Assembly (NCBI RefSeq): GCF_029873635.1
Contig: NC_080423.1
Location: forward strand, 94,358,191 to 94,422,190
Direction: 5' to 3'
Length of the DNA stretch: 64,000 nt
Source of the DNA: Malania oleifera
Lineage: Eukaryota; Streptophyta; Magnoliopsida; Santalales; Ximeniaceae
Shown here piece after piece: positions 11,664-60,159 of this stretch; within the stretch, counting starts at the first letter, position 1, and each line of letters starts with the position of its first letter. The notes beneath the pieces were generated by a model that had not been told where the DNA came from, did not search any database, and saw nothing but the letters and a program-made list of their open reading frames with translations. The position numbers and the translations under genes are program-made.

Positions 11664-11668
11664 AACAG

Positions 11669-11852: not shown

Positions 11853-11859
11853 CTCTCCC

Positions 11860-14800: not shown

Positions 14801-15284
14801 TTTACTATGTTCACTTACATTAGCCTCCTCAAAGTAGTGGAGTCCCTCCTACTCCTTAGCACTGCCAATCGTCTTCCCCGATGATAGGTCCTGAAAAACA
14901 CAATGAGAGGGAAGAAATTTAGTAGAACAATGAGAGTTTTTAGTTAACTGGCTAATGGATAGTAAGTTACAGGATAAATTAGGAACATAAAGAACAGACT
15001 CTAGTGTGATGGAGTCGGAGAGTCGGATATTCCCTTTGCTTGCGACAGACGAGAGAGATCCATCTGCAATTTTTAACTTTCAAATTTCTATCACATGGTG
15101 AATATGATGAGAAAAGACGATGGGCAACAGTCATGTGGTCAGAAACACCAAAGTCAATAATCCAAGAAGTTTTGGATTTAGAGGTTATATTCAAGGCTTG
15201 TAAAAAATTACCTCTTTGGGCTAAAGAACCCAAAGAAATATTTGTGGAAGATGAGAAAACCTTTTCATCTTGTGTGTAAAGGCA
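11860..15284 (-). pseudogene. copia Pol (protease-integrase-RT-RNase H), broken
   Basis: The minus-strand reading gives Pol in the normal copia order. Protease: WIIDFGVSDHMT near 15155, where the active-site D-S-G has become D-F-G. Integrase: [19 protein letters not shown] near 14240-14320, then CTAFVHVHAHNWDKL and VFIGYSPTQKDYKC (13916-14233). RT: VCKLKKSLYELKQSPRAWF and the catalytic LIVYVDDIILIGDD (12672-13019). RNase H: RSSAEAKFRAVAQGICEGLW and IKLYYDNKAAISI (11860-12252), ending just before the polypurine tract. Several frameshifts and stops separate the frames. The upstream end joins RPL6 sequence in frame instead of a Gag with a zinc knuckle. Confidence 0.9.
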
Positions 15285-15453
15285 AGCTTTCAAGTTTGGA
15301 ACTCCATTAATTGATGCTATCAATGGTGCATCAACAGTTTTCTAATCATCTTTTTTCTGCTGCGGGAGCGCTGTCTTTTCCTCTTTTTCTGTCTCAAAAA
15401 ACTCATTTTCCCCTTTCTTTTTCTTCTTTTCTACTTCCTTAGCAAAATACTTG
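15285..15453 (-). pseudogene. RPL6: Ribosomal protein L6 (eL6) retrocopy, C-terminal part
   Basis: On the minus strand, directly after the MULE target site, the frame reads KYFAKEVEKKKKKGE, then a Glu/Lys-rich stretch to KKDD, a TAG, and KTVDAPLIASINGVPNLKA. These segments follow the order of the C-terminal third of plant cytosolic eL6. The TAG replaces the usual Gln codon (CAG to TAG). The frame then runs without a break into copia protease sequence (CLYTQDEKVFSSSTN ... WIIDFG); the RPL6-like and protease segments are in the same phase and separated only by that stop. The last 25 or so eL6 residues are missing. The N-terminal part lies at 36375-36874, across the MULE. Confidence 0.88.
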
Positions 15454-15852
15454 GAGTTTTTTCCCATTTTATTATAGAAAAGAAATAAAATATAAAATAA
15501 CACTCTGATTGGGAAAAATTTTCCCAAAATAATACTCACGTAATCTCGCAGCTTCATGCTGCGAGATTTAAACTGATGGCCACTCTACCTTCGACGCGTG
15601 GCAAAGAGAGAAACAGGGGGCAGGTGACGTGTGGCAACGCTTGAAGAAATCTCGCAGCTCCAAGCTGCAAGATTTAATGAGGCATCGAACTAGAACGTGA
15701 CGCGTGGCGGAAATCTCACAGGACTAAGCTGCGAGATTTGCGCCTGAAATCCATCTGCGTGGTGACACGTGGTAAATCTAGCAGGATCGTCCTACGAGAT
15801 TTGTTTCGTCTGCTGAAATCCTTCCCGAGCCCTCTCAGAACACAATATTGCA
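15454..15852 (+). repeat. MULE left terminal inverted repeat with four hairpins
   Basis: About 399 bp that matches, inverted, 36006-36374. It contains four imperfect palindromes built from AATCTCGCAG / CTGCGAGATT, at 15541-15570, 15647-15675, 15711-15739 and 15774-15802. Each has a stem of about 11-12 bp and a loop of 5-7 bases. GC-rich segments with CACGCGTC-like words lie between them. Confidence 0.9.
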
Positions 15853-16547
15853 GAGGAGAAAAGTTGTAGACCGTTCAAGCTTGTAGAGGATCGTTGGCAG
15901 GTTACCGTTCGAGGTGGCAGGTGACCGTTTGAGCGAAGGCGAGGCGAGGCTATTTAAGGGCCGAAGATGGGGTATGTTATTTGTTATTTAGAAAAAAACG
16001 TGAATATATTATTTAACTTACTGGGATTTATTTTATGTTTTGAGTTGGTTTGATATCATATTTGCGTTCCGACTATTTGGGTTCGTTGCTGCATCTAGAG
16101 GAAGGTTAGTTTTTTTAATTAATAATTTCATTAACGTTTGTGTCTCTATTAGTATGTGTATATACTCCGCATAATGATTTGTAGAATTTGGTATTGCCGT
16201 ACACTTAGGGCCTGTTTAGTTCTTGAAAATAATTTTTTTTTTCATTTCTAGGTTTATTATTACTATCTTTAGAAATTGAATGTTAAATTTCAATTGTGTC
16301 GCTTGAGTAGTTTTGAATATTTCAGTTTAGAAAATTTATTTATTATTTGCTTAATTGATATTACTTAAGATTCTATGTTTCATAATAAAAAATCGAACCG
16401 CAACATCAAACCAAACCAAATCGAAAAATTGGTTAACCATTTCTTTGGTTCAATTTTGGTCACAAAATTTTAATTTTTTTCATTTATCAGTTTGGTTTTT
16501 ATTTGGCCCATTCAATAATCACAATTAACCAAACCAAACCGATATAC

Positions 16548-16593
<46 letters not shown>

Positions 16594-16950
16594 GCATATT
16601 ATGTATAATATCATGTAAATTTTTAATAATTTAATCTTGAATATTTTAAATAAAAAAAAGTATATTGATCTAATATTTATGCTTCAAATTTTATCTTCAA
16701 TATTTTAAATTTACATATTCATTAATATCAAAGAAGAAATACTGTTTAAGACTTTTGTTTGTTTGTATTTTTTGTATTGTTTGTGGGTCTTAACTCACTT
16801 TGATAAAGTTCTTTAATTACAAACCCATTATTAGATGAATTGATCCATAATTTACATTATCTAGTATTTGGGTGTACTAGTTATGCGTGTCTCCTTGATC
16901 ATCAAGTATAAATTAAGACAAAGAGTTAGGATAGTTTAACATGTAATAGA
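15853..16950 (+). promoter_or_regulatory. MULE subterminal region with possible promoter and 5' intron start
   Basis: There is no coding sequence. A TATA-like CTATTTAAGG lies at 15950-15959. Then GAAG followed by GTTAGT at 16105 could be the donor of a leader intron whose acceptor would be TTGTGTAG at 28407, 30 bases before the MURA ATG. This intron is inferred, not proven. A (TA)n run of about 40 bases is at 16551-16590. Confidence 0.35.
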
Positions 16951-17278
16951 TGTTAGAATTGGTGTATTCCCAAGAGGGGGGGTGAATTGGAATTTTAAAA
17001 TTTATCACCTAGGTTGAACTGGATAAATAGCAATATATACACAACTTAGGGTATGCCTATTCAATTTCCAAATGCGTAGATAAATATAATGTGAAAATTA
17101 AGTCATACGCATCATTCACCCATAACATACATGTGCGGTAAATATAAAGTGCGGAAATAAAAATGAACACACGATATGTTATCGGGGTTCGGCCAACCGT
17201 GCCTACGTCCCCGCCTCAAGCTCGCAAGCTAGAGGATTCCACTAATAGCTCACTTAAGGGTGGAGCGGCACCGTTTAC

Positions 17279-17430
17279 AACCAGGTCAAATTAACACAGG
17301 GTTGACCTCAACCTTAACCAGGTCAAATTAACACAGGGCTGACCTCAACCTTAACCAGGTCAAATTAACACAGGGCTGACCTCAACCTTAACCAGGTCAA
17401 TTAGCGGGGCTGACCTCAACCTACACGCCT
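17279..17430. repeat. 37-bp tandem repeat inside LTR
   Basis: The unit reads CCAGGTCAAATTAACACAGG then GTTGACCTCAACCTTAA or its variant. There are three full copies and a partial fourth. The same array is at 24588-24739 in the other LTR. The solo LTR at 33576-35829 has fewer copies (about 35440-35505), and the older relative at about 42240-42280 has one, so copy number grew within this family. Confidence 0.85.
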
Positions 17431-18454
17431 TAACAGGACGATGCACCTAGCTTTCCTAACCGGGTCTAAGCCAATCCGGGACTATTCCAGGGCTAGTCTC
17501 CCTCTTCAGGCCCGTGCCTGGAAATACAATCAAAGTGTATTACAATGAACTGGTACAGTGATTGTGCTTTTAAGTAAAGCAGATATGTACCCAAATTCGC
17601 ACAATAATATACACCACAAATATGAAATAATTTGTAAGCTCAATGTGGTCAATATGGTTCAACTCTCAAAGTATATTCTATCAGTGTAATGTGTGCGTGA
17701 GAGTGTCGAACTAACAGTCTTTGTATCACAAGATATGTTCAATAAATAGGTTCACACAAAGATGTCAAGTCTTGTATATTTCGATCATTTAGATATTTCA
17801 AGCATGTAAGTATTAAACGATGTATATGCTTGATTTGCAAAAGACGTGTAATCTTTGTATTCAGCAAATGATATATGAGTGAAAGAATGTTGCAACAAAG
17901 ATCACAATCACACAAGCAAATATCTCTTCAAAGTATTTTGCAACATAAAAGTACAATAGATATTTGAAAGTGTTTTGAAAAGTTTTTGCAGACAAAAGCA
18001 AATACACTCTTCTCAAGATCTTGCAATGAAGGTGCAAGCTTAGAAGATCTAACAAGGTCTTCTTAGGAAATGCTTTATTAGCAAAAGCCTCCTAAGAATC
18101 CTAAGGTTTGGCTCCCAAGAAAATCAAACGAGTAACACAAGGAGAGCAAACCTATTAAGCAAAACACTCAATCAACTTACAAAATATGTAGGGAATGCTA
18201 GAAGGCAAGTATGAGTGGTTTGAGTAATAAAATGAGTATTATAGGGTTTTGGTTTTTCAAAGAATTTTTCCCTAATCAAGGTGGCTAATCACTTTAATCT
18301 TTTGCAAATGAAGACATATATATAGGCAAGGGAGAAAATATGACCGTTGGGGACCTATAGGGTATTATTAGAAAAGTTTAATGGAGTTTAATGCATTTTA
18401 ACCCTGTTTAGAAAAATATTAACCACGGTAAAAATGGGAACAACCCGAGAGGTC

Positions 18455-18981
18455 CGGTCGACCAAAAGTGGTTCGGTCGACCAGGACTCAAGTAGCTCGG
18501 TCGACCGGGAGCATTTTGAACTGAGTGGTCGGTCGACCGGAAAAAGGCGATTTTCAAAAATACCGCGGTTCGGTCGACCGAGGCCTTTTTGAACTGCTCG
18601 GCTCGGTCGACCGGGTTGTTGGGAATTTTCCCAAGACCCTTCGGTCGACCAAGTAGTTGGAGTACAATTTTGGTCGGTCGACAGGGAGGTCAAAATGTTG
18701 ACTCTCAGGGTGTTCGGTCGACCGAGGTCAAATGACCTATAAGGGGTCGGTCGACCGGGACCGGGTCAAATAGTTGACCCGGACCGGTTTCGGTCGACCG
18801 GGCCAATTTGAACTGAGTTGGCCGGTCGACCGAAGGTGCACCAAGTGTGCATTTCGGTCCCTTCTTGCAACATAAAAACCTTATTCAAGTGCCTATTACA
18901 TACAAGTGCAAAGGTGAGTGTCCTAAGGTCACTTGGGGTCCAATTTTGAAGACACCGAAGAAGTCCGGTGTCGGTCGACCG
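18455..18981. repeat. Array of palindrome CGGTCGACCG, 3' LTR
   Basis: Thirteen copies of GGTCGAC-cored sites lie in about 530 bp, most of them the full 10-bp palindrome CGGTCGACCG or one base off. Spacing is irregular (about 25-60 bp; the last copy is about 140 bp away). They lie in U3, upstream of the LTR TATA box on the minus strand. The matching array in the other LTR is 25764-26290. Confidence 0.9.
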
Positions 18982-19267
18982 AAGGTACACCCTAAGGTCT
19001 TTCTATGGTTCGGTTTGAGCTTACAAAGTAAATCATTCATGTGATGTGTGTGAGCTTATTACAAACCGAAAAACCCTAATTACTATTACAGACAATTTCA
19101 CTGGAAAATATTATAATTAAGAGTTTATGAAATTGTCTTCAAGCCTTTCTTGCTTTGTGCACATCTTGATCTTATCATTCTTGATTCCTGCACAAAAACT
19201 CAACTACTCATTAGATACAATGAGTATTTGTCATAATCAAAACCGGGCGTGACCAATAAGGTCAACA

Positions 19268-20051
19268 ATCTCCCCCTTTTTGATGATGACAAATGCGACA
19301 AGCGAAAATATAGGGTTAAGCCTAATAAGGCTCCCCCTCACAATATGCATCTAATGTATTTAAATAAAACCATTAACCCATTATTTTTGCCTTTTTCATC
19401 TCCCCCTTTTGGCAACAGCAAAAAGGGTCATTTGAATTTAAAAACCTAGGCAATGAGTGATGAGTGTACTTATACATGATGAATTTTGGAAAGATGTTGG
19501 AAAAATTTCGACAGAGTGCCGTTCGTAAATTGGACTTTCCAAAGGTAAATCTGTATAAATGTAACCTGTTTGAGTTTATATTTCCTAACAGTTTATCCAC
19601 AACTACTCAAACAGTTCAGCATGGTCCAATTTTAGCAAGTGAAATATTAAACATGAATTGGACAGGTTGTGCAATAAAGGTATAACGTGTGCGCACAATC
19701 AATATAACTGGTGATTCTAAGATGTAGATGACATAGCAAACAAGATTAAACCAGAAATATACAAAACCCTTTAACAATGAAACATATCATAAAACCCGTG
19801 GAAGATTTGAGTTAGGGTCACACGGCATATGATACTAAAAAGAAGGTTTGAGCATAAATGTAGTCTAACTAATTCACATGCATTTTCACATATTATCAAT
19901 GAGCCAGTTATATAACGCACCACCCTTAAGATATGACATAAAATTTTAATGCATGGAAAGAACAAGTCATGTAGACAAGTAAGCACACTAGCAAGACATA
20001 TAATATATCCAATATGAGTTCAGTTTCTGCTTTTATAAATAGATATAGATA

Positions 20052-20088
<37 letters not shown>

Positions 20089-20710
20089 CCCTTAAATATG
20101 TGCAAAAGGAGTTGGGGGAAGTTGCTTGAAAAGAAGAGAACTTTTTCTGGTTTGTCAATTATGCGCATACTCATTTATATCCAGAAAAATCATAACCATA
20201 GTGATCCAAAATTTTTGGATTTACATGCATGATCATATGGCAAATCAAGTAGCAGTGGCAACATGAACATATTTCAATTTAAGACATTCCATTTAAGCAC
20301 AAACCACACTTGATTTAAAGTACATCCAATCCCAGTATATTTTGTGAGCAAGACAAGATGGATATTTGTTTTTAGATGCTCCCCCTAAATGTATGCAAAT
20401 TATGAAACAAATACTTCACATGTATATATACATTTGGCACACACAGGTAATGTTTCAATCATTTGGGCAAATATCTACAGAAAATTCGGCAGCATGCCGG
20501 CAGTAAACAGGACATTTCCCAAATTTTACCTGCACAAAAAAACGTTCTCAAACAACCAGTATTATAAAAGTAAGGCACACGAGAACCTATCATCTACCAG
20601 CAGGCAATTCTCAACAACTGCATCCGCCATGCAGTAGGCATTCTATACTACTCATGCATTTCAATACCATACACAATTAATCACAAGAGCATGCAAGTAA
20701 AGATACTGCA

Positions 20711-20755
<45 letters not shown>

Positions 20756-20997
20756 TAAATAACTAAGGTAGTATGTCAATAATATCATAAGAGTACAAGA
20801 TAAAGCGAAAGAGCTGTTTTATTTAATACAGATCAGATGATATAACATAACAACAAAAAGAATCAAGGCCACGCTATCTGATCTGTGGACAACTCTGGAG
20901 TCTAGATCTCCCCTCCATCATCTCCTCCATCTTCTCCTCCATCACCACCATCGGCGGCATCAAAATCAAAATCCATCGTCATCCGATCTCTCTCATC
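19268..20997 (-). other. 3' untranslated interior of the Sirevirus-like element
   Basis: No coding sequence. On the minus strand, motifs of the type AGGGGGAG occur at the true polypurine tract (19268-19281) and again at about 19310, 19400 and 20380. Two (TA)n runs are at about 20058-20087 and 20716-20752. Confidence 0.6.
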
Positions 20998-22098
20998 CTA
21001 CATCTCTTGAATGCGATCACTCAGCTCACTGAAGCCTGTTGTCATGGTCCGCTCCAAGTCTGTAAGGCGGCTATCAGTGGAGATGGAGTGCTGCTGGAAC
21101 TCCTGCCGAAGTGCAGTGGATGACGATGCAAGATCCTGTAAGTCAGACTGGACTGATCCTCGAAACTGCATAAACATGTCTGACAAGCCAGAGATAGCAG
21201 TCATGAGATCCGCCATCGATGGCTGTGGAGGCTGTGGTGGCTCCTGTGGGGCCCCAACATGTGCTACTCTAGAGGACGCCCAAACGTTCCCTACGAGCTC
21301 ATACCCCATTAGTCTAAGGGTTACTCCAGAGAAGGTGTCCGCCGGTCGTCTCCTCTTCAGTGAAGCCACATTCGTCCTCGTGACTCCAATGCTTCTGAAC
21401 AATTTGTTCAGGATACCTCCATATGGCATGATCACTCGGTGGCCAATCATCTTGGCCATCATCCATCGGATAATCAAACTTGGCAGGTCCAATTTCTTCC
21501 GAGCAAAGAGGCACCACATGACAAAGCAATCCAAAAAGGAGACGTGCACTCTAGATCCCACCTTGGGCAGGATATTGTATGTGATCAAATGGTGCACGAT
21601 CTTAGCCTCTAGGCTGAACTGTCTGTACTGGGGAGGATGGATCTGGCTAGCAGTTCCAGGGTCAGACATGGTCAGATTGGCGAATGTGGCTACGGTAAAT
21701 CCCTGATCAAGGATCCAGGTGTTACCCACCTCGGGGCACTGAAAATCACCACGGCCAATGTCAAGGACTTCAGAGATATATTGTGCATCAAAACGCACAT
21801 CTGTCCTCAGGACACGAGAGAAATACCCGTTCTCGTCATTGCCAAGGTTGGCATAAAACATCCTGACGAACGTTGGGTAATGTCCCCCAGGTTGGTAGGA
21901 GATAAATGATCTCCACCCCTGATACTCGAACAAGTCTAATATATTCTGAAAGTATTGACCCATAAAGACTAAGTCAAGTATCTTACCAAGTATGACCTCC
22001 TTGGGACGGAACTCCCGTATGTACCGCATCTTGCATCTGTCAGAGAGAAAGTACTCATCCTCGGCATGTGCAAGATCGTGAGCTTCAATATGTGCCAT
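20998..22098 (-). CDS. Second ORF of the element, putative plant transposon protein domain
   Basis: An open frame of 366 residues starting MAHIEAHDLAH. Its first 250 residues resemble the conserved plant family usually called putative plant transposon protein, found as an extra ORF in LTR elements. Landmarks are GWRSFISYQPGGHYPTFVRM then FYANLG, VLDIGRGDFQCP, and VSFLDCFVMWCLFARKKLDL. The last 100 residues are Gln/Ser-rich with a likely coiled coil (SMADLMTAISGLSDMFMQF to TGFSELSDRIQEM). Its biochemical role is unknown; it is not a recognisable transposase. It lies downstream of gag in the same orientation, where sireviruses may have an env-like ORF. It is fully open, which fits the young LTRs. 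Confidence 0.75.
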   Translation of the reverse strand: MAHIEAHDLAHAEDEYFLSDRCKMRYIREFRPKEVILGKILDLVFMGQYFQNILDLFEYQGWRSFISYQPGGHYPTFVRMFYANLGNDENGYFSRVLRTDVRFDAQYISEVLDIGRGDFQCPEVGNTWILDQGFTVATFANLTMSDPGTASQIHPPQYRQFSLEAKIVHHLITYNILPKVGSRVHVSFLDCFVMWCLFARKKLDLPSLIIRWMMAKMIGHRVIMPYGGILNKLFRSIGVTRTNVASLKRRRPADTFSGVTLRLMGYELVGNVWASSRVAHVGAPQEPPQPPQPSMADLMTAISGLSDMFMQFRGSVQSDLQDLASSSTALRQEFQQHSISTDSRLTDLERTMTTGFSELSDRIQEM

Positions 22099-22896
22099 GG
22101 GAATGATGATATGAGGCTAGAATATAAGGAAATACAAGAAGGGAATGTAAAGTCTCTCAAGGATCTCGCGCAAATGGGCTGAAAACGAAGAGATTTAACA
22201 TATATATCGCAGCTCGGTCGACCAGGAGTAGATACGGTCGACCGACGCTTGAAATTCCCCAGGTACCGACACCTTTCGGTCGACCGAGGCAAAAATGAAC
22301 TAGAATGGTCGGTCGACCGTAAGGGTGTATTTTGCCAGGTTTCGGTCGACCAGGGGGAAATCGAGACTTTCGGTCGACCGAGACATTTTGTTCATGAAGG
22401 TTCGGTCGACCGTGAAGGGTCAAAGTCAACATGGTCCGGTCGACCGAGGCATTTTATAACTACAGTGCTCGGTCGACCGAGAACAGTTAAATTTCCCAGT
22501 TTTTCTTGATTTTTGATCCAGAGTTCTCCCTAAGGTCCAGATTTGATGTGTAATAGCATAACCATGATTCTTAGGGGTTCTTGGTGAAGAAATATCGCTC
22601 AAGTGAGGTGTGTACCAAGAAATGATTCTATCAATTTATTTTAGATACCGGGCACTACGGAGTATGACGCTTTTCTTAACTTGGACTCAAAGGTGATTGG
22701 ATAGTGTCCTATAGAGATGATGACATGAAGGAGTAGGGATACGAACCAAGAACGAGTTAAGACTCACCGAGTATGACTTGCGGTTTTGGTGAGGGCTACC
22801 TATGAAAGGGATAGGTGAGTGCGTGTACCACGATTATCACTATACCCAATGACCGCTTTTCAATCCTATCGTCATCACAACATTTTAAATGTGAGC
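22099..22896 (-). other. Spacer between the two ORFs of the Sirevirus-like element
   Basis: Non-coding. It holds a second cluster of nine CGGTCGAC-cored sites between 22214 and 22480, outside the LTR. Confidence 0.7.
22214..22480. repeat. Internal array of palindrome CGGTCGACCG
   Basis: Nine copies in 267 bp, each with CGGTCGAC intact, most extended to CGGTCGACCG. Sequence between the copies is unlike the LTR array, so this is not a simple copy of LTR sequence. Confidence 0.88.
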
Positions 22897-24204
22897 CTAG
22901 GAACTAAGGAAATATGTCAAGAATGTATTCTCGATTTGAATTTGCTTTTCCTTGAGTTCTACAAGATTTGCTTCGCTGATTATCCATCTCATTTCCTTTT
23001 CAAGTCCTCTCTCGCTGCTTGGTAAGCAGTTAAGCCACGTATGCCACACAAATTTGCAAAATAAACAAGCATGGCATATATGTGAAGGATTGTGCTTGTT
23101 TATTCCATCTTTTTTTGGTGAGACTGGATTATTCGTTCTATGTGAGCAACCCGAACCCCTTTTAAAATGAGTTTTCTTTTTAGATCTAAAGGGTTTATCA
23201 TGATTATTCGTATTAATCTCAGGAGCAACTTTCGAATAATCATTTGTTTCTTCATCTAAGCATGCAATATTCAGTATCTTCTCAACCTTTTTCTTTTCAA
23301 GAATAGCATGAAAAATTTTTAGCCCTTTTAATTGATTTGCTATTCTTTTGTTCTCATTCTTTAGGCGTATTTCATGCTTAGAAGTTCCAACTATAAACTT
23401 GTGCATTTTCAATAAGGTCTTTTCTAGTTCTTCATGTGATAGCATGCTTTTAATATTCAAATCAATACATGATTCATCAAGAGAATTACAACGGTCTTCA
23501 TATGAATCACTATATGCATGCTCAATAGGACTATCATGAGGCACAAGAGATGATTCATTCCTTAGTAGACTACAACATTCAATATATGAATCATCACAAA
23601 CATCACTATCAAAATTATCATGATTTTCAACAGATGGTCCAGCATTTGATATGTCACAAAAACAACCATATGATTCATCGCAGGATTTTTCATAGTAAAT
23701 ATCGCATGAACCATTCACAGCATTATCAACAGATGATTCAGTATATGACCCAATACAGCATTCATTACATAAATCATCAGGAGGGCTAGAGTAAGAATCA
23801 TATACCTCATCTTTGATGTCTAGCTCTTGAATTACCTCCTCTTGATAATTTAAGCTTGGAGCATCTGGAGGAGTTACTATTTCTAATTCCTGGGATTTTC
23901 CATATTTCTTTTCCAATTTGTCCCAGATTTCCTGTGCACTTTGATATGCCACAAACTCAACAAAGATATCAGAATCTAAAGCAAGATGCAACATGTTCAT
24001 GGCATTAGAGCTGATCATATTAAAATCATTTTCATGTATTTGTGCAAATCTTCCTTTGACAGTCACAAGCCAGACCCTCCAGTCTATAGATTTCAAAAAT
24101 ACGGTCATTTTAACTTTCCACACGGTGTAGTCGACACCATAAAATACTGGAGGACTGGAAAGTGACTGTCCCTCAACGAATGGGGATACACCAATGTGAG
24201 CCAT
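22897..24204 (-). CDS. Gag-like protein with zinc knuckle
   Basis: An open frame of 435 residues starting just downstream of the primer-binding site. Residues 15-100 show the copia Gag fold region (PPVFYGVDYTVWKVKMTVFL and VAYQSAQEIWDKLEKKYG). Then come an acidic region of about 130 residues rich in Asp, Ser and Cys, a Lys/Glu-rich stretch likely to form a coiled coil, and basic KKKTHFKRGS. A perfect C-x2-C-x4-H-x4-C knuckle (CLFCKFVWHTWLNC) is at residues 380-393. The protein would form retrotransposon particles and bind RNA. No protease or pol follows in any frame before the second ORF. The start is the first Met after the leader. Confidence 0.85.
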   Translation of the reverse strand: MAHIGVSPFVEGQSLSSPPVFYGVDYTVWKVKMTVFLKSIDWRVWLVTVKGRFAQIHENDFNMISSNAMNMLHLALDSDIFVEFVAYQSAQEIWDKLEKKYGKSQELEIVTPPDAPSLNYQEEVIQELDIKDEVYDSYSSPPDDLCNECCIGSYTESSVDNAVNGSCDIYYEKSCDESYGCFCDISNAGPSVENHDNFDSDVCDDSYIECCSLLRNESSLVPHDSPIEHAYSDSYEDRCNSLDESCIDLNIKSMLSHEELEKTLLKMHKFIVGTSKHEIRLKNENKRIANQLKGLKIFHAILEKKKVEKILNIACLDEETNDYSKVAPEINTNNHDKPFRSKKKTHFKRGSGCSHRTNNPVSPKKDGINKHNPSHICHACLFCKFVWHTWLNCLPSSERGLEKEMRWIISEANLVELKEKQIQIENTFLTYFLSS

Positions 24205-24244
24205 TGCGATCTTTTTACAAAAACGTTTAAGTCAAGTGCAACGA

Positions 24245-24257
24245 GGCTCTGATACCA
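24245..24257 (-). other. Primer-binding site of the Sirevirus-like element
   Basis: Minus strand TGGTATCAGAGCC, complementary to the 3' end of initiator tRNA-Met, two bases after the 5' LTR end (CTAACA then AT). It fixes the element's orientation. Confidence 0.9.
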
Positions 24258-24259
24258 AT

Positions 24260-26576
24260 TGTTAGAATTGGTGTATTCCCAAGAGGGGGGGTGAATTGGA
24301 ATTTTAAAATTTATCACCTAGGTTGAACTGGATAAATAGCAATATATACACAACCTAGGGTATGCCTATTCAATTTCCAAATGCGTAGAAAAATATAATG
24401 TGAAAATTAAGTCATACGCATCATTCACCCATAACATACATGTGCGGTAAATATAAAGTGCGGAAATAAAAATGAACACACGATATGTTATCGGGGTTCG
24501 GCCAACCGTGCCTACGTCCCCGCCTCAAGCTCGCAAGCTAGAGGATTCCACTAATAGCTCACTTAAGGGTGGAGCGGCACCGTTTACAACCAAGTCAAAT
24601 TAACACAGGGTTGACCTCAACCTTAACCAGGTCAAATTAACACAGGGCTGACCTCAACCTTAACCAGGTCAAATTAACACAGGGCTGACCTCAACCTTAA
24701 CCAGGTCAATTAGCGGGGCTGACCTCAACCTACACGCCTTAACAGGACGACGCACCTAATTTTCCTAACCGGGTCTAAGCCAATCCAGGACTATTCCAGG
24801 GCTAGTCTCCCTCTTCAGGCCCGTGCCTGGAAATACAATCAAAGTGTATTACAATGAACTGGTACAGTGATTGTGCTTTTAAGTAAAGCAGATATGTACC
24901 CAAATTCGCACAATAATATACACCACAAATATGAAATAATTTGTAAGCTCAATGTGGTCAATATGGTTCAACTCTCAAAGTATATTCTATCAGTGTAATG
25001 TGTGCGTGAGAGTGTCGAACTAACAGTCTTTGTATCACAAGATATGTTCAATAAATAGGTTCACACAAAGATGTCAAGTCTTGTATATTTCGATCATTTA
25101 GATATTTCAAGCATGTAAGTATTAAACGATGTATATGCTTGATTTGCAAAAGACGTGTAATCTTTGTATTCAGCAAATGATATATGAGTGAAAGAATGTT
25201 GCAACAAAGATCACAATCACACAAGCAAATATCTCTTCAAAGTATTTTGCAACATAAAAGTACAATAGATATTTGAAAGTGTTTTGAAAAGTTTTTGCAG
25301 ACAAAAGCAAATACACTCTTCTCAAGATCTTGCAATGAAGGTGCAAGCTTAGAAGATCTAACAAGGTCTTCTTAGGAAATGCTTTATTAGCAAAAGCCTC
25401 CTAAGAATCCTAAGGTTTGGCTCCCAAGAAAATCAAACGAGTAACACAAGGAGAGCAAACCTATTAAGCAAAACACTCAATCAACTTACAAAATATGTAG
25501 GGAATGCTAGAAGGCAAGTATGAGTGGTTTGAGTAATAAAATGAGTATTATAGGGTTTTGGTTTTTCAAAGAATTTTTCCCTAATCAAGGTGGCTAATCA
25601 CTTTAATCTTTTGCAAATGAAGACATATATATAGGCAAGGGAGAAAATATGACCGTTGGGGACCTATAGGGTATTATTAGAAAAGTTTAATGGAGTTTAA
25701 TGCATTTTAACCCTGTTTAGAAAAATATTAACCACGGTAAAAATGGGAACAACCCGAGAGGTCCGGTCGACCAAAAGTGGTTCGGTCGACCAGGACTCAA
25801 GTAGCTCGGTCGACCGGGAGCATTTTGAACTGAGTGGTCGGTCGACCGGAAAAAGGCGATTTTCAAAAATACCGCGGTTCGGTCGACCGAGGCCTTTTTG
25901 AACTGCTCGGCTCGGTCGACCGGGTTGTTGGGAATTTTCCCAAGACCCTTCGGTCGACCAAGTAGTTGGAGTACAATTTTGGTCGGTCGACAGGGAGGTC
26001 AAAATGTTGACTCTCAGGGTGTTCGGTCGACCGAGGTCAAATGACCTATAAGGGGTCGGTCGACCGGGACCGGGTCAAATAGTTGACCCGGACCGGTTTC
26101 GGTCGACCGGGCCAATTTGAACTGAGTTGGCCGGTCGACCGAAGGTGCACCAAGTGTGCATTTCGGTCCCTTCTTGCAACAAAAAAACCTTATTCAAGTG
26201 CCTATTACATACAAGTGCAAATGTGAGTGTCCTAAGGTCACTTGGGGTCCAATTTTGAAGACACCGAAGAAGTCCGGTGTCGGTCGACCGAAGGTACACC
26301 CTAAGGTCTTTCTATGGTTCGGTTTGAGCTTACAAAGTAAATCATTCATGTGATGTGTGTGAGCTTATTACAAACCGAAAAACCCTAATTACTATTATAG
26401 ACAATTTCACTGGAAAATATTATAATTAAGAGTTTATGAAATTGTCTTCAAGCCTTTCTTGCTTTGTGCACATCTTGATCTTATCATTCTTGATTCCTGC
26501 ACAAAAACTCAACTACTCATTAGATACAATGAGTATTTGTCATAATCAAAACCGGGCGTGACCAATAAGGTCAACA
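24260..26576 (-). repeat. 5' LTR of the Sirevirus-like element
   Basis: 2317 bp, same length as the other LTR, with about 10 substitutions seen by eye. It has the palindrome array (25764-26290), a 37-bp tandem repeat (24588-24739) and a TATA box (about 25620-25631). Confidence 0.95.
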
Positions 26577-26581
26577 ATAGA

Positions 26582-28437
26582 TATTTACATTATCAAAATG
26601 ACTTAATTGAGATACCTTTGGCTGTCGCACCAACTAAATTATTATAACATTGTGGACGTAGAAAAAGTTAATCTTTTACCAATATTTATTATTTATTAGA
26701 GTCACATGAAAGAAAATGAAAAAAAATAAGAATTGTTGTTATTTTTAGACTTCTTACATGAGGAGTGACAGCGGTAGCCACCTAAAAAGGATAAATTAGT
26801 AGGTAGACTTCTACCTCATAAGCTACATGGGTTAAACCAATTAGAATTAGACAACACATACATAGAAGTACTACATAAGCTGTTTTTTACACTTAATTGT
26901 TAATTTTTTGAAAACCATTCTTACAATTTTTCAAATCGAAAAAGAAATTTATTCTTTTGACATGCATATATGCAAATAAAAGGGCTATATATTTCAAGAT
27001 TATCATACATTATGTTGAAATATAAAAGGATTGGTTACATTAAATAAGACAATTCGCTTAAATGAAGTTACTTAAATTTTAAAAATCAATACGGCACCAC
27101 GAGCTCATAATATCAAACACTAAAAATTACATAGAGAAAAAAATATTTCACCAAATTAATCAATGAAAACACGGGATGTGTTCATAACAACCCTTATTTA
27201 TCTCGAGTAATTAATTACTTTTAAAATGTTTGTCCTTAATATCTTAATTAGCTAGTAAGTAAATAAACATGATAAATACAAATACATATTTGAAACAATC
27301 GAATTTTTGAAGGAAGCTAAACAAAATAAAATAAAGTAGAGAGAGATTGTGAGTAATAAGATAGGAGGAATTTGATAATACAAACTATATAAATGACAAA
27401 AGGTATGTGGTTAACTAGTTCCCTTTGTGAGATAATTATTTAGATGTATCATTGTAGTGTCATCTTCATCAAGCTTTTCGCATCACTTCTCTATATTGAC
27501 TTATCAAAATTTTTAAATTATATTGTATTTGATGACACAAATTTGAAACTTTATATATAAATTTGTTAAAATTTAGATAAAATTCAACATAACCTAAACT
27601 TGAATCATAACTGATGTGTGGATTCTCACTCCTCCCATATTTTGTTTAAGAAAAAATAGAAAAATGAATCTCATTTTCTTTCTTATGTATAAAAAATAAC
27701 TTTCTAAATTAGTGACAAGATGAGTTCATTGGAGATAAATGATATATTAAAAATAATTTTTTATTAATGTTTGGCAGCAATGTGAATATGATAGTGGCAT
27801 GCATATAAGTTGAAGGAATTATAAGTTAATTATTTAGTATACACTCAATGGCACATGATGTTTTGGAGCTTTTGAATCTATATTTGAGATATGTATATAC
27901 ATACATATATATATATAATTAATTTTATTATATAATATAAATATAAAATGTTAATTAATTTTTATGAAATATTAAATAAATATTTGTGACACACGCATTA
28001 ATTGAAGGCTTGCTTACAAAAAAGTTTCAAAGATATTATATGTTATATCTAAAAGTATTTTTTTTCTAAGCGCGAATTTAAATGCCTCTTGCATGGCTGA
28101 TGCAGTGATATGAATTGCATGCTGGTAGATATCATAGGTTCTCACATGCTTAAACTATATTATTATATTATCTGTAAACGTTTAAGGGTCATTATAAAAA
28201 TGGGTAAATATTCAAATTACACTTGACATGCTGCCGAAATTTCGATACGACTTTTCGTAGAGAAGTCAGAATTGCATGCAAGAATATTTTCAAAGTGACA
28301 AGTGAAACATTTAGAGAATATTGCATGCACATGAACGTATTGAAAATAATTTTTGTTCACTATTCACTTAGCATATGACTTATACATAAAATTATTGTTT
28401 TGTGTAGGTCTTTTATATTTCCCGGGCGTCAATCTAG
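26582..28437 (+). other. AT-rich MULE interior before MURA
   Basis: Continues the MULE after the Sirevirus-like insertion (ATAGA TSD). No protein-coding signal; mostly AT-rich. If the proposed leader intron is right, most of this is intron, and the acceptor would be at about 28407. Confidence 0.5.
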
Positions 28438-30630
28438 ATGGCAGGAAGTTCAAGCAGTATTCCGGTTCCGGTATTGTTGTACATGGGGGGTAACATTATA
28501 ACCGGACAAACCGGTGTTAGTTATAGTATTCCGCCAATTCAACCTATTAGAATTGGTCATAGGTGTAAATTAACTAAATTGCATGCGAAGATATACAAGT
28601 ATTTGCATATTGATCCAAATCAATATGCATTGCGGCTAACTGCAAGATACTCGGTAAGGGGCATCATGATACAATCTTCTATGAGGTTATTCCCGTAACT
28701 AGTGATTACGGTTTGCGCATGTTGTTGGATGCACACTACGTAGGGACGACATATTTGACTGTGCAACTGTATGTCGAACTCATTCCTCAGATGGGTGTCG
28801 CCGCAGATGGGTAGTCGGGAACGTCTATTGAGCACGTGGTTGAAGCGGAGGAAGAAGATGCAGATGTTCATGGGATGCCTGTTGTGGATATGAACGAATG
28901 TCCACGATCGTCATTTGAGGCGCAGACGTACGAAGGAACTACTATTCATACGAATTATCATGGTGTTTGCGAAGATGTTTCAACAGAACAACCAGGATCG
29001 TTGTCCGCAATAGCAAACAACGCGCTGGACGTGGGGAGGAACATCACGAACGATGTTCATTTACAAGATGACACGTATAAGGAGGAAATTGGTGAAGGGA
29101 CGACGAGTTCCCCGAGGATGTCGACCCACCCCCCCCGGTCAATCGAACGATGCCACGTATACGGCAGATTTCATGGACGAACCTCCTATGTATGGTGTAA
29201 TTGACGTAGATGCTGCAGATTTGTCCCATGGTGACGAGCTTCCTATACGGGTAACTCGTTGGAATGAATCATCTGAACTGAGTAAAGGGATGCTATTCGA
29301 GTCGAAAGATCAATTTATAGCTACTGTACGAATATACCACGCTCAAACGCACCATGACTTCCACATCCTGCAGTCGACCCCACTATTATGGGTTGTTAGG
29401 TGTAAGAACTCTGAATGCAGTTGGAGACTGCGTGCGATGTATCGTCAGAAACATCGATTCTTCGAAATCACTCAATATGGTGGTCCGCACACATGCTTGA
29501 ATGAACTCCTCTCGCAAGACCACAGCCAAATCACGTCATCCCTTATTGCTAGGGAGATTGTGAATATGATAAGGGGTGATGCGTCGACCTCAATCGCTAC
29601 ATTGAAAGAATTCATAGATCGTCGTTTCGGCTATTCCATCTCATATAAGAAAATTTGGTTAGGAAAACAGAAGGCAATTGCCCAAGTATTCGGCGATTGG
29701 GAGAAGTCTTATCAGACATTACCTAGGTGGATGGAAGCAATGTGCACTTATAATCCTGGTACTGTCGTCAAGTGAAGGTGGAACCCTATACCAGGCAGCG
29801 ATCAGACCGTAACATTTGTATCAGTCTTTTGGGCGTTCGCAGCATCTATTCAGGGTTTTCCCCACTGTCCTCCTGTGATATGTATAGATGGGACACACTT
29901 GTACGGTAAGTACAAAGGAAAACTCCTTATTGCGATGTGCCCGGATGCAAATAGGCAAATATTTCCCCTTGCATTCGCTATTGTGCAAGAGGAAAGTTTG
30001 GACAATCTCGATTGGGATGACATTTGCCTTATATCAGATAGGCATCCAGGGATCATCGCTGCAGTGTCTCACAATCTCGATTGGCAGCCACCGCATGTGC
30101 ACCACCGATTCTGCCTTCGACACGTTGTAAGCAACTTCAGCACGAAAGTGCACAGTGTCAATCTGAAGCGAATCTGAGTGCGCGAGAAGGGAGCATCATG
30201 TCAGAAAGTTTAACATGTGGATGAAGAAGATCTTCGATGAGGGTGGGGAACCTACAAAGACGTTTTTTGATCAAATCGCTCCCCATATGTGGACTCAGTG
30301 CCACGACGGTGGCAGAAGGTATGGGAACATGACGACAAACCTCGTCGAATGTTTCAACGCCGTCCTTAAGGGCGCTCGTAGCCTTCCAATCACTGCCCTT
30401 GTGCAACTGATATTTTATCGCGTTGCACATTATTTCAACAGCCAAAGGGAGGCTACTCGTAATGCAATATCAGGAGGAAATGCATTAACTCCTCATATAT
30501 TGCTTGCGATGGAAAGAAGGAAGTTGAAGGCGACCGGACATCGCGTGACGACGTTCAACTAGTCTAGAGGTACTTTCAGCATCACAACTGCGCAGATGCA
30601 GATTTTCAGACGATAGCATGCCACGCACGA
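28438..30630 (+). pseudogene. MURA-type transposase of the MULE, broken
   Basis: It starts with ATG and MAGSSSSIPVPVLLYMGGNI, a MULE N-terminal region, with a frame change near 28655 and a TAG at 28812. The frame 29053-29775 carries the FLYWCH/MuDR-like zinc region (VVRCKNSECSWRLRAMYRQK ... GGPHTCLN). The transposase core follows: PPVICIDGTHLYGKYKGKLL (first Asp), DDICLISDRHPGI (second Asp), the C-x2-H motif FCLRHVVSNF, and TTNLVECFNAVLKGARS with a candidate third acidic residue. About 15 residues seem missing between EESLDNL and DDICL. A TGA at 29773 stands for an expected Trp, and a frameshift lies near 30177. A frameshift near 29130 falls in a C8 run. The SWIM zinc finger expected at the C-terminus is absent; PMD sequence takes over. 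Confidence 0.88.
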
Positions 30631-31704
30631 GCCCACTTGTTGCGTTTGATTTGTGGGGTGATCTTCTCTGATGTTCCCGGCAGTTATGCGCATCTGATGT
30701 TCCTTCCACTCCTTGAGGACTTCGGAGCTTGTCACTCGTACAGTTGGGGGTCCGCCACTTTGGCGTGGTTGTACAGGGAGATGTGTCGCGCTGCGCACCA
30801 CTCAAAGACACAGATTGCGGGCCCCCTTTGCTTACTCCAGGTTTGGGCTTGGGAGAGATTTCCTTCTTTAGCGCCTACACGATGAGGTTTCTTGCAGATT
30901 AAGAGGGGTCAGGACGGTCGTCCAGTTAATCCTCTCCCACTAGCATACCGGTTAGTACAAATTTTATCTATCCCTTCTCATTCACTCAATAACTATTACA
31001 AATACTAATTCGTAATACGTAGTAGTCTTGCATTTGGGAACTTACGTTTCATCTTATACAGATGGAGGGATGACTTGAGGGCATCGATGGTTGCGCTTCA
31101 CACATTGCCCTAGTACAGGTTCGAGTTGGACATGTACTGGGAGCATGAGGTATAAATCAATTAAAGTATAGCACACGATATTCTTTCTTTCTTTTAATTG
31201 TGTATAGTCCGCTTATCTTTTTGTTTTGTCTAACTACAGTTTTTATGGATGCCCTACACAGAAGATATTTTAGCCGACATGCCGCCTGCCTATGCAGACG
31301 AGAGGGACCTGTGGGTAGCTCGAGTGCCACTCATATGCTTTCATATTATTGAGTAGTATCTCCCCGATCGAGTCATGCGACAGTTCGGGTTTCAACAGGT
31401 CATTCCCGCCCCATTTATGACTTCGGGGGTAGATATTGTTGGGGACGATCTCCACAGCATGGATGGGCGTGGTCGAGGGGTCACAGACTGGTCGAGTACG
31501 CACGCGATATTCGTCACTGCATGGGAGCATCGGCACGACTACATCGTACGAGGAGTGGCGGAGCACAGTCCGATGCGTCTAGATGACCCATACTTCACTT
31601 GGTATAGGTCTATCACACGCCGCTTCGTCGACAGGACCGTAGCTGTATATTTGAGCCTCGTAAGAAGACTAATGCCACAACTCATTTTATGATATATATC
31701 TATA

Positions 31705-31741
<37 letters not shown>

Positions 31742-32391
31742 GTTCCGATTTGAATACGTTAATAATATATGTTCATATCCTGCAAGCTGACATAGTCATT
31801 GAGGCAGACCAGATCTCATCGGATCCTGCGATCCACCGATTGATGAGTGCTGCACTGGACCTCGTCCACAAGGACGGTCGACGGATCCCAGAACGAGGAG
31901 GACAACCTGATGTACCAGCACGAGGAGGTCGACCAGCTCCAGTACGAGGAGGACGACATGCCTCCTCTAGTCGTCAAAGGACTCCCATGTCCTCCCCACC
32001 AGTCGTACAGGCCGAGTACTTATTCGGCCCGTCAGCACCTTATGCGCCTTCCACTGCAGCTGATATTGCTGGACCGTCAAGCAGACCGATTGATGACCCA
32101 TCCGAGTCTGCTGCTACCCCATCGATGTCATTTTTATTGGACGATCTTTTCGATGGGGTGGAGGTCGATGCACCCCCTATGCCGCCTCGTTCTCGTCCCG
32201 AGACATCGTATCATTTCTCACCGTGTGCGCTCCGCATGGCTGATGATGATTTTGCAGCACCTCTTGGGGGAGAGGATCCACATCCAGCACGACGGGCCAG
32301 GACACCTGATGATGCTGACCAGCAGGGAGAGGGTAGAAGCAGACGGCAGCCACCACGACCCCGGAGACGACCTCACTGCGGCACGGAGTAG
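30631..32391 (+). pseudogene. Plant mobile domain (PMD) part, with three introns
   Basis: Directly after MURA the reading becomes PMD (the domain of MAIN/MAIL1-type and PP7-long-form-like proteins): DVPGSYAHLMFLPLLEDFGA, SYSWGSATLAWLYREMC, QIAGPLCLLQVWAWERFPSL. Three GT-AG gaps restore the reading: 30951-31061, 31150-31239 and 31660-31786. The exons between give ASMVALHTLP, then FLWMPYTEDI and VMRQFGFQQVIPAPFM, DYIVRGVAEHSPM. The last exon encodes an Arg/Pro-rich tail to a stop at 32391. In-frame stops at 30883 (TGA), 31111 (TAG) and 31354 (TAG) fit CGA, CAG and TGG codons altered by transitions, so the gene is dead here. Whether MURA and PMD were one transcript is inferred. Confidence 0.8.
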
Positions 32392-33575
32392 TTTAGCATT
32401 ATTTTCATTGCATTTTAGTTGTATGTATATCAATGATTGTTTTTATTTCATTTATATATAATTGATTATATTTTTTATTCTTTTGTATATATCATTTAAT
32501 ATTTCGTATCTCTAAAGAATTCAATACTGCAAAATATAAAAAATGACACATAATTCGTATTGCTAAAATTTGCATGTCTAGTTAAGTTAATTCCTTAAAT
32601 TGAATTGTCTTTTACTGCAAAATTCGTATCGCTAAAATTTTTATGGTATTTGGTTAATGGATTTTACTTTTTGCGGTGTATTTAGTGTCGTTAGCAGTCA
32701 AAGTAAGATTACTTGTGTGTGTATTAAAAACAATTTTATACCTTATCTCAAAATAATAAATTAAATAAGACTAATCTACCTACCCATATGATAGTATCCT
32801 AATTTCATATAATTTTAATCATTTCTTAGTTAAAATTAACAATGTGTTTTATTAAAATTTAATTATAATTATATTTAATTATAATTTAAAATATAAAATT
32901 TAAGTTTATAAATTTTATAAAAATTAAATTTAAAATATAACAATTGTTTAATTGTTAAAATATAACTTTCCCTTATAAATTTAAAATTTAATTAAATTTA
33001 ATTTTTTTAAAGTTATAATTTAAATTTAATTATAATTTTCCCTTTCTACAAATTTAAATTTAAATTTAAATAATAAATTTAAATTTGTCTTGCAAAATGT
33101 TTAATTGTTAATTTTAAATATTACATCCAATAAACATTTTGTAGCATTATAATTACTAGGCATTTTTATAACTTATTGAGAAATTTATTTTTTTTCAATT
33201 ATTTTTTTATAAAATTTTGAAATAATACAACTTATTTTGTCATACTTATATAATTAGTTGGCCCAAAGCATCAAAACAGTCAATTCGAAAAAAATTTTCG
33301 GTCTCTAATCTACTTATTTGACTTTAATCATTATATTAATCATATATATTTTTTTATTTACTAAATTAATGTCATTTTAAAATATCATTTTATTAAAGAC
33401 AAATTTTGTTATTCCACATGCATTTAATTTAATAGTTAACTACCAAATTATTCATTTCGTCAATAAAATTAAATTATAAGAAATTTTTTTGTATTTTTTT
33501 ATAATTTCAGGGGTTAGAATCATATTTTGAAATTTTTTTTTGAATTTTAACCAAATTTTTATGTCTAAATACTTA
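32392..33575 (+). other. AT-rich MULE 3' region, no gene
   Basis: Very AT-rich with short ATTTAAATTT repeats around 32850-33070. It ends at the ACTTA target site of the solo LTR. I see no ORF of interest. Confidence 0.5.
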
Positions 33576-35829
33576 TGTTGACCTTATTGGTCACGCCCGA
33601 TTTTGATTATGACAAATACTCATTGTATCTAATGAGTGTTTAAGGTTTTGTGCAGGAACTAAAGGTGTTAAAATAAAGATGTGCACAAAGTTAAGAAAAG
33701 CCCAAAGACCAAAGTTTTATTTCATAATGTAATATATTTAATTGGTCTATAATAGTAAGTAGGCACTTGGTTTGTAATAAGCTCACACACATCACATGTA
33801 TGATTTACTACGTAAGCTCAAACCAAATCATGAATGAGAAAGAACCATAGAAAGACCTTAGGGTGTACCCTTCGGTCGACCGACACCGGACTTTTTCGGT
33901 GTCTTCAAATTGGACCCCAAGTGCCCATAGGAAACACACATTTACACATATGTTTGTTAGACACTTGAATAGGACTTGTTAGGTTCAATACAGGACCGAA
34001 AATGCACACTTGGTGCACTTTCGGTCGACCGGCCAACACAGTTCACTTTGGCCTGGTCGACCGAACCGGCCCTGGGTCAACAGTTTGACCAAGGCCCGGT
34101 CGACCGAACTTCACAGTTCATTTCTTGTCGGTCAACCGAACCACCTGGGAGTCAACATTTTGACCTCCCAATCGATCGACCACTTTTGTATTCCAACTAC
34201 CTGGTCGACCGGAGGGTCCTCAGAAGAATTCCCAGCGGTCTGGTCGACCCAACCATGAAGTTCAAAAAGGCCCGATCGACCGAACCTCAGAAATTTGGAA
34301 AATCTCCTTGCCCTGGTCGACCGACCATTCAGTTCAAAAGTCCCTTGGTCGACCGAGCCATTTGAGTCCTGATCGACCAAACCATTTCTGGTCGACCGGA
34401 CCTCTCGGGTTACCCTGTTTTTTTACCGTAGTTAATTTTTTTAAACAAGGTTAAAATACTTTAAACATCATTAAACTTTTCTAATAATACCCAATAGGTC
34501 CCCAACGGCCATATTTTCTCCCTTGCCTATATATATGAGTTCATTTGAGAAAATTAAGTCAGATTAGCCACTTTGATTAGGGAAAATTCTTTGAAAAACC
34601 AAAACCCTATAATATTCATTTCCAAGCTTCACATACTCAATCTTACCTTCCCATATTGCCTACATCATTTGTAAGTTGGTTTTGAGTATTTGTCTTGATT
34701 GGTTTGCTCTCCTATCTTTGGATTGTTTGACTTATTTATGAGAGTTAAACCTTAAGTGTTCTTAGGGGACTTTGGTAATAAGTCTTTCTTAAGAAGACTT
34801 ATATAAAACTTCTGAGTATTGCATATTCATTGCAATATCTTAAGAAGTTTGTATTTGTATTTTGGTTGCAAAAACATTTTCAAATATCTACTGTGTTTGT
34901 ATCTTGAAAATATGATGAGATATTTGCTTATGTGATAAAATCTTTGTTGTAATATTCGTTAACTCATATATCCTTTGCTGAATACAAAGATTGAATATCT
35001 TTTGGCAAACCAAACATATACACTTCAAGAGCATCATACAATTGAGAAAACCCGCTCTTTGAAATATACACATATATTGCTTAGCTAGTATCTTCGTGTG
35101 AACATCTTACCTGAATATCTTGTGATACAAAGATCATCTAGGTTTGCACTCTCATGCACTCATTACAACTATAGTAAATCTATTTGAGAGTTGAACCATC
35201 TAGATCACATTGAGCTTACATATTGAATCATACTGTGGTATTTGTAATTAAGCGTATTTGGGTACACATCTGCTTTACTTGAAAGCTTATTCATTGTACC
35301 ATTTGATTGTATTTCAAATACTGTTGTATTTCCAGGCACGGGCCTGAAGAGGGAAACTAGCCCTAAAATAGTCCCGGATTGGCTTAAATCCAGTTAGGAA
35401 AGCTAGGTGCGTCGTCCTGTTAAAGCATGTAGGTTGAGGTCAGCCCCGCAAATTGATCTGGTTAAGGTTGAGGTCAGCCCTGTGTTAATTTGACCTGGTT
35501 GTAAACGGTGCCACTCCACTCTTAAGTGAGCTATTAGTGGAATCCTCCTGCTTGCGAGCTAGAGGCGGGGACGTAGGCATAGTTGACCGAACCCCGATAA
35601 CATATCGTGTGTTCATTTACATTTTCGCACTTTATATTTACCGCACATGTATGTTATGGGTGAATGATGCGTATGACTTAAAATTCCACATTATATTTAT
35701 CTACGCATTTGGAAATTGAATAAACTGACCCTAGGTTGTGTATATACTGTTGTAGGATAGATTAACTTAGGAGAAAAAGTTTTAAATTCCAATTCACCCC
35801 CCCTTCTTGGGAACACACCAATTCTAACA
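33576..35829 (+). mobile_element. Solo LTR of the Sirevirus-like family
   Basis: It starts TGTTGACCTTATTGG, ends CAATTCTAACA and is flanked by ACTTA (33571-33575 and 35830-35834), with no internal sequence. That is what recombination between two LTRs leaves. Its orientation is opposite to the element at 16951. It is clearly more diverged than that element's two LTRs are from each other. It has a TATA box (CTATATATATG near 34528) and a degraded array of 13 GGTCGACC-like sites. Confidence 0.93.
33872..34399. repeat. Degraded GGTCGACC array in the solo LTR
   Basis: Thirteen sites, many now TGGTCGACCGA, CGATCGACC or GGTCAACC. They mark the position of the palindrome array in an older copy and show its decay. 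Confidence 0.85.
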
Positions 35830-36005
35830 ACTTATTTATAATCAATAATTTCTTTTATGTAAATCTTTTTAAAAAAATTATATATTTAAAATTTGTAAAA
35901 AAAGTTAGTATTATTTAATAATTTCTTTATTTTTTATAATAAAATGGGAAAAAACTCATTTTAGTTTCCCACAAGAGGAAGCAAGCAGAGTAGAAGGAGT
36001 TTTTT

Positions 36006-36374
36006 GCGATATTGTGTTCTGAGAGGGCTCGGGAAGGATATCAGTAGGATCGTCCTGCGAGATTTACCACGTATCACCACGCGGATAGATTTCAGGCGCA
36101 AATCTCGCAGCTTAGTCCTGCAAGATTTCCGCCACACGTCACGTTCCAATTCGATGCCTCATTAAATCTCGCAGCTTGGAGCTGCGAGATTTCTTCAAGC
36201 GTCGCCACGCGTCACCTGCCCCCTGTTTCTCTCTTTGCCACGCATCGAAGGCAAAGTGGCCATCAGTTTAAATCTCGCAGCATGAAGTTGCGAGATTACG
36301 TGAGCATTATTTTGGAAAAAGTTTTTCCAATCATAGTGTTATTTTATTTTTTATAATAAAACCGGAAAAAACTC
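36006..36374 (-). repeat. MULE right terminal inverted repeat
   Basis: The inverted partner of 15454-15852. Hairpins at about 36041-36065, 36100-36128, 36163-36192 and 36270-36298 match those on the left. Just inside it, 35935-35958 repeats the terminal 24 bases of the element in the same orientation. Confidence 0.9.
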
Positions 36375-36874
36375 AAAATACTTGTCATCAAACTTTTCTA
36401 CATTAATTGCAGAAATGTCAACCTTGGTAGAAGTTGCAATCACGTAAGACTGGTTTACGCGCCTTAAAGGAACACCATCAACCTTAAATGGGCCAATAAC
36501 CAGAAGCAACCCAGATGGAAGTTGTCTCATAAAAACAACTCCCTTCCCCTCAAATCTCCCAGCCAAGAGAACCAAAACCGTCCCAGGCGTAATGGCGTAA
36601 TGGCGTAATGCTCGGTCTGAGCTTGGTGAATTTGGGCTTGCGCTTGTTAGCGAGTAGCTTTTTTACATTTTCGGCGGGGTAGATCTTGGGCGGTTTCTCC
36701 GCTTGCTTCTGCGGCGCCGGCTTGGGGGTCGTGGAAGAGGAAAACGCCGCCGTGTTTGACCTTGATGGCCCAAATACCACGCTTGTGACACATCTTGGAT
36801 CTCGAGAATTTCCCGATACCTCATACCATTTCTGCGTTCTAGGTAGTTCTGGGTTTCCTAGCCGCCGACGCCAC
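36375..36874 (-). pseudogene. RPL6: Ribosomal protein L6 (eL6) retrocopy, N-terminal part
   Basis: On the minus strand the start codon has become GTG (36872-36874), followed by ASAARKPRTT, stops, and [21 protein letters not shown] frameshift leads to [20 protein letters not shown], then SITP, a 16-base insertion (ATTACGCC repeated three times), [20 protein letters not shown] and [20 protein letters not shown], ending FDDKYF at the MULE target site. These match plant eL6 (60S subunit) in order, without introns, so this was copied from mRNA. The leader at 36989-36997 has AAACCCTAA on the plus strand, the telo-box common in ribosomal protein gene leaders. It continues at 15285-15453. Confidence 0.92.
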
Positions 36875-37358: not shown

Positions 37359-37363
37359 AACAG

Positions 37364-60097: not shown

Positions 60098-60159
<62 letters not shown>

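Follow-up and report, generated by a model that had tools for sequence, protein, structure and literature searches.

We examined a stretch of 64,000 nucleotides from Malania oleifera (contig NC_080423.1, positions 94,358,191 to 94,422,190 of the forward strand; hereafter the window) that contains a Ty1/copia retrotransposon carrying a copy of the gene for ribosomal protein eL6 (RPL6) in its gag position. Read 5' to 3', the element has a primer-binding site, a leader, the RPL6 sequence, the copia protease and the remaining pol, and its parts were located as follows.

37358 to 11669, minus strand: whole copia element
37359..37363, minus strand: target-site duplication CTGTT, upstream copy (AACAG on the plus strand)
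37175..37358, minus strand: 5' long terminal repeat (LTR), 184 bp
36901..37174, minus strand: primer-binding site and copia leader, including a telo-box-like motif and the element's first ATG
36375..36900, minus strand: 5' part of the spliced RPL6 copy (end of the host 5' untranslated region and N-terminal codons), ending with the target duplication of a Mutator-like element (MULE) at 36375-36384
15285..15453, minus strand: 3' part of the RPL6 copy, in phase with the protease region and beginning with the MULE target duplication at 15444-15453
11853..15284, minus strand: short shared tail, protease, pre-integrase, integrase and reverse transcriptase (RT)/RNase H of copia, with stops and frameshifts
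11669..11852, minus strand: 3' LTR, 184 bp
11664..11668, minus strand: target-site duplication CTGTT, downstream copy (AACAG on the plus strand)

The LTRs have TG...CA ends and are identical at 169/184 positions (92%), with CTGTT outside both, in agreement with an earlier note on this DNA that had described LTRs and an AACAG duplication enclosing the whole arrangement. The protease adjoins the pre-integrase after the gag position, as seen from the Pol_BBD match, which we take as the protease, and the gag_pre-integrs match in a sister copy (L012) collinear with the window, and integrase precedes RT in an order read from the sequence only. No gag gene with a zinc knuckle was found in the slot between leader and protease, either in the window copy, as the note had also reported, or in its three other copies, and RPL6 stands there instead. 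The window element is a gag-less copia derivative and not a complete copia. Its leader of about 270 bp is common to relatives up to about 36905, and the telo-box that the note had assigned to the RPL6 leader is present as a telo-box-like TAGGGTTT near 36989-36996. It belongs to the copia leader and not to RPL6, and relatives that lack RPL6, L047 and L049 among them, have it in their leaders too.

The host RPL6 gene (L015 on contig C11) has four coding exons and three GT-AG introns, and its spliced translation is identical to the annotated M. oleifera eL6-like protein P0001. Comparison of exon junctions with this gene upheld the description of the captured RPL6 as intronless, as all three introns are absent from the chimera copies, and the RPL6 piece is therefore derived from spliced mRNA. 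About 30 bp of host sequence ahead of the start codon were captured, and the piece ends 53 bases short of the end of the host reading frame. The start codon is altered in the window copy. As had been claimed, the C-terminal RPL6 frame runs on into that of the protease without a change of phase, interrupted once, by an in-frame TAG, in the window copy. The note had named a target duplication and a poly(A) tail of its own as evidence that RPL6 was a separate later insertion, and RPL6 has neither inside the copia element in the window; likewise gag was absent from all four chimera copies.

The search of the same genome that the note had proposed, using the RPL6-protease junction as the query, matched four places, namely the window, contig C8 (L012), contig C7 (L013) and contig C6 (L014/L053), as well as the host gene; five additional matches of 34-37 bp covered the protease side only. 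A query of the leader and the RPL6 5' part, for which 40 of 178 candidates were scored, gave the same four places and the host gene, and its other matches were leader-only, the longer ones stopping near query base 264 where RPL6 starts. L013 lies about 6 kb past the window and shares the flanks on both sides of the window copy, and is thus a local duplicate of it. The L012 and C6 copies lie on other contigs with flanks unlike those of the window copy, with a target duplication of GAGTT/GAATT in L012 and none recognisable at C6. The chimera accordingly occupies three unrelated positions plus one local duplicate, an intronless sense host piece inside LTRs that was amplified with its element. Because the same arrangement recurs at three other places it is not a chance one, and a separate later RPL6 insertion was ruled out by the junction common to all four. 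The copies also share substitutions against the host gene, which suggests that a single RPL6 capture lies behind them, and with the shared 3' junction the loci on other contigs bear out the proposal that the chimera was mobilised as a unit. L012 retains one unbroken frame of 425 codons with Ribosomal_L6e, Pol_BBD and gag_pre-integrs. LTR divergence (K80) was 0.087 in the window, 0.047 in L012 and 0.10 at C6, and pol in L012, L013, L047, L048, L049 and the C6 copy matched the window without the host inserts, with deletions in L012 and L013. Among predicted proteins, Pfam found no Pol domain, and hence no RPL6-Pol fusion elsewhere, in the best 120 of 823 and the best 120 of 2130 matches.

The slot was not reserved for RPL6. 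About 120 bp beside the protease motif are common to the RPL6 copies, L047, L049 and L007-L010, the other member types sharing only the last 80-90 bp, and the leader of the RPL6 copies agrees with that of L047 and L049 as far as one common point. What L047 and L049 hold inside these limits is a different insert, and because leader end and 3' tail are shared, RPL6 probably replaced an earlier insert of this type, or the reverse. An assignment of the L047/L049 insert to an AAA-ATPase, which it seemed to resemble, was dropped when Pfam, PDB and NCBIfam gave no match, and the insert was left unnamed. A second tail is common, in translation, to the members with RPL21, RPS16, SKP1, RPS2 and ArfGAP-CCDC124.

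The slots read yielded nine identified host genes in all: RPL6, RPL21, RPS16, RPS2, SKP1, ArfGAP, RPL8, glycyl-tRNA synthetase (GlyRS) and CCDC124, five of them encoding ribosomal proteins. The RPL6 capture, which the note had left as one event or a small family, is thus one of nine such genes in the same slot, and a single odd copy was ruled out by the further captures in relatives. Pfam matches in slots were L6e, L21e, S9/S16, S5, Skp1 and ArfGap. RPL8 was identified at E 5e-63 and the two SKP1 captures at 1e-47 and 5e-34 (PDB search); the SKP1 forms in L070 and L094 are 75% identical over 377 bases, so SKP1 was probably taken twice. The GlyRS piece gave a 41-residue match (E 9e-7; NCBIfam 5e-7, under the whole-protein cut-off as expected for a fragment), CCDC124 was identified by protein homologues with no direct Pfam match, and a BORCS6-like piece (L048, also seen as L032) fell below the Pfam cut-off. 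Database searches gave no identity for an arginine/serine-rich piece (L023, L036, L078, L084, L090) or for the L079 insert. Three members are two-gene mosaics, with RPS16 and SKP1 (L070), RPS16 and GlyRS (L073) and ArfGAP joined in frame to CCDC124 (L081). The genome also has matches of RPS2 and SKP1 that are split into two stretches kilobases apart, as expected for intron-bearing genes, and one split RPS2 match (C2) lay inside a copia copy.

Several further observations concern these pieces. In L032 (2493-2804, plus strand) the C-terminal part of RPS16 seemingly comes before a more N-terminal part, as if by two jumps into the same mRNA, with the second part placed by what we take to be the RPS16 order. 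Leader matches adjoin SKP1 matches at seven places (C11:79996395, C11:44927325, C3:122382782, C3:121418606, C4:107874572, C3:28519584 and C13:20886957), making the second SKP1 form, read in L094, a multi-copy lineage. Two Malania proteins annotated as uncharacterized, P0121 (LOC131149732) and P0122 (LOC131145587), join sequence of ArfGAP to that of CCDC124 and terminate in the copia-slot tail or close to it. They look like gene models of ArfGAP-CCDC124 chimeras, and this resemblance of predicted proteins to chimera products is a warning for annotation.

For a survey of its members, the genome was scanned with a protease-region pattern, two mismatches being allowed; this was located 200 times, and the reversed-pattern control not once. 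One hundred of these sites were listed, 89 of them exact; 10 exact sites already analysed were set aside, 40 were drawn randomly from the other 79, and their slots were classed by BLASTN against reference slots. The pattern is biased towards its own subfamily, as the gag-bearing L026 and L029, found by their LTRs, deviate in it. Gag or gag remnants only were found in 18 of the 40 slots (11 with a full or truncated gag and 7 with an internally deleted one), gag together with a host piece in 2, and a database-identified host piece with gag absent in 12. An identified host piece is thus carried by 14 slots, among which L074 rests on 77 bp of RPS16. Three slots held a serine/arginine-rich piece without database identity, one held another such piece and four had no reference match. 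The internally deleted gag (L054, L057, L063, L065, L066, L085, L086) apparently marks another successful non-autonomous lineage. A gag identified by Pfam is present in siblings that agree in LTR, primer-binding site and protease motif, and these are candidate helpers. The guess of the note that another copia helped is consistent with their existence, the helper action itself being our reading of it.

Slot contents thus vary by member as sense pieces of different host genes, with splicing demonstrated for RPL6, and we hold it quite likely that this is a copia family of M. oleifera in which the gag position is a recurrent landing site of host mRNA. Messages of the host, frequently those for abundant proteins (ribosomal ones, for example), would be co-packaged into copia particles. 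Reverse transcriptase would there switch template from element RNA to host mRNA and return to the element, with the loss of gag as the result. With Gag supplied in trans by gag-bearing siblings the chimera would then move, and in-frame joins would be favoured since pol would remain translatable from an upstream start. Template switching fits because of the sense orientation, the loss of introns in RPL6, the breakpoints in coding sequence, the mosaics and the internal position of the pieces.

A serious rival, which we regard as possible if less than probable, leaves this capture route unchanged and treats the pieces as neutral passengers, with gag lost or replaced at random and the in-frame pattern produced by chance and by the easier recognition of open frames. 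Against it, 9 of the 11 captures whose host frame is defined by a database match, the sub-threshold BORCS6-like piece included, have that frame in common with the protease (binomial P 0.0014 against one third, if independent; 8 of the first ten, P 0.0034), values that are optimistic because pieces were picked partly by open length and shared tails leave the junctions not fully independent. With RPL6 counted by L012, 7 of the 11 have their first ATG downstream of the primer-binding site in the host frame, and in L070, L081 and L094 an unbroken frame runs from this ATG into the host piece. These open hybrid frames are predicted fusions.

Several points favour neutral passengers and weigh against captures kept for their reading frame. 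Two of the 11 captures, GlyRS in L073 and ArfGAP in L022, are out of frame, selection by open length itself favours in-frame cases, and the first ATG is off the host frame in 4 of 11 captures and, for RPL6, in one of the two copies checked (L013). Internally deleted gag is also common (7/40). Ka/Ks for RPL6, computed with a simple Nei-Gojobori script, was 0.45-0.76 for copies compared with the host and 0.55-0.82 for copies compared with each other, so that the dN/dS comparison proposed in the note gave values close to neutral and no sign of RPL6 kept functional. Each RPL6 copy has 1-3 in-frame stops, and because the stop at codon 12 recurs in three of the four copies, RPL6 was perhaps already defective at the time of its spread. 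In the full-length copies listed, pol no longer reads as one frame but as several. As to selection on pol, Ka/Ks was 0.38-0.94 for RT and 0.48-1.11 for protease/pre-integrase between capture-bearing copies, as compared to 0.20-0.27 between these and the gag-bearing L050, so that pol was constrained on deeper branches and has mostly decayed since. Bearing on the capture account itself, splice borders were inspected for RPL6 alone among the captures, and the capture itself is read from sequence, with the helper action an added inference.

Chimeras could also have arisen by read-through transcription of copia beside donor genes followed by splicing, or by recombination at the DNA level. Read-through transduction is a known route in the text cited (PMC13317346), yet both borders of the inserts are internal to the element and one slot was used by several donor genes and by mosaics, and we consider this origin unlikely. 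Slightly more doubtful still is a stronger version of the recurrent-landing account, in which Gag would be supplied in trans while selection would keep whichever host mRNA gave an open in-frame N-terminal partner, the basic RNA-binding RPL6, RPL8, RPL21, RPS2 and RPS16 being favoured as exchangeable Gag substitutes for RNA binding and not as passengers. That RPL6 is an ordinary retrogene inserted later into copia would suit its lack of introns and is hardly credible, since one and the same 3' junction recurs at four places, RPL6 brings neither a duplication nor a poly(A) tract with it, and its 3' coding end breaks off where it meets the protease.

The RPL6 copy of the window was afterwards interrupted by another element.

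15454..36374, plus strand: MULE inside RPL6, 20.9 kb, a later insertion absent from L012 and L013
29014-30177, plus strand: MULE transposase pieces (PF10551 E 9e-14; PF03108 just under cut-off)

The MULE has a terminal inverted repeat of 399 bp at 86% identity and is flanked by exact 10-bp duplications CAAGTATTTT, so that terminal inverted repeats, a duplication in the 8-11 bp range and a MULE transposase are all present. The window RPL6 therefore lies in two halves at about 36900-36375 and 15453-15285, a division that the note, correct about RPL6 in the gag position, had omitted. Inside the MULE, direct repeats at 16951-19269 and 24260-26578 (2319 bp, 99.6% identity), which we take as LTRs of a nested element, enclose a copia-type frame resembling gag as well as a Transposase_32 domain; an inverted repeat related to them (79-89%) occupies 33566-35830 and is probably a solo LTR. 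RPL6 in the C6 copy is likewise split, by several kilobases of unassigned sequence (L046 about 3190 to L053 about 2688). Elsewhere in the window G+C falls to 0.234 at 60001-64000, far lower than in the remainder.

Bs1 of maize, to which the note had aptly compared the element, is described in the cited text as an LTR element with spliced-type pieces of three host genes in a hybrid frame, with template switching into co-packaged host mRNA given as a general mechanism (PMC13317346). Like Bs1, the Malania family carries host gene pieces in an LTR element, demonstrably spliced for RPL6; unlike Bs1, which is one element type, it shows many captures at one position, gag-bearing members alongside and at least five ribosomal protein genes. 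Host gene fragments within LTR elements are also reported from rice (672) and sorghum (1343) (PMC3726574) and from maize, with 425 elements from at least 189 captures (PMC2774510). The maize survey, in the text cited and under its conditions, reported not a single element that combined parts of two or more standard nuclear genes, whereas two-gene mosaics occur in Malania, and a family with a refilled gag slot is not described in the texts cited. Additional open reading frames (aORFs) of plant LTR retrotransposons resemble the Malania captures as extra coding sequence in family copies and differ, as summarised in PMC7264820, in lying mostly between pol and the 3' LTR and in being mostly held not to be transduced host genes. 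Capture by plant LTR elements is therefore already known, and what appears to be new here is a family whose gag slot is refilled again and again, mostly in frame, of which we saw no description in the open-licence literature. Host-gene capture has been known from single elements and genome-wide lists, and a slot filled repeatedly beside gag-bearing siblings amounts to replicate events. Such replicates allow tests of which mRNAs are taken into copia particles, of the points at which reverse transcriptase jumps, and of whether pol has to stay in frame when help comes in trans.

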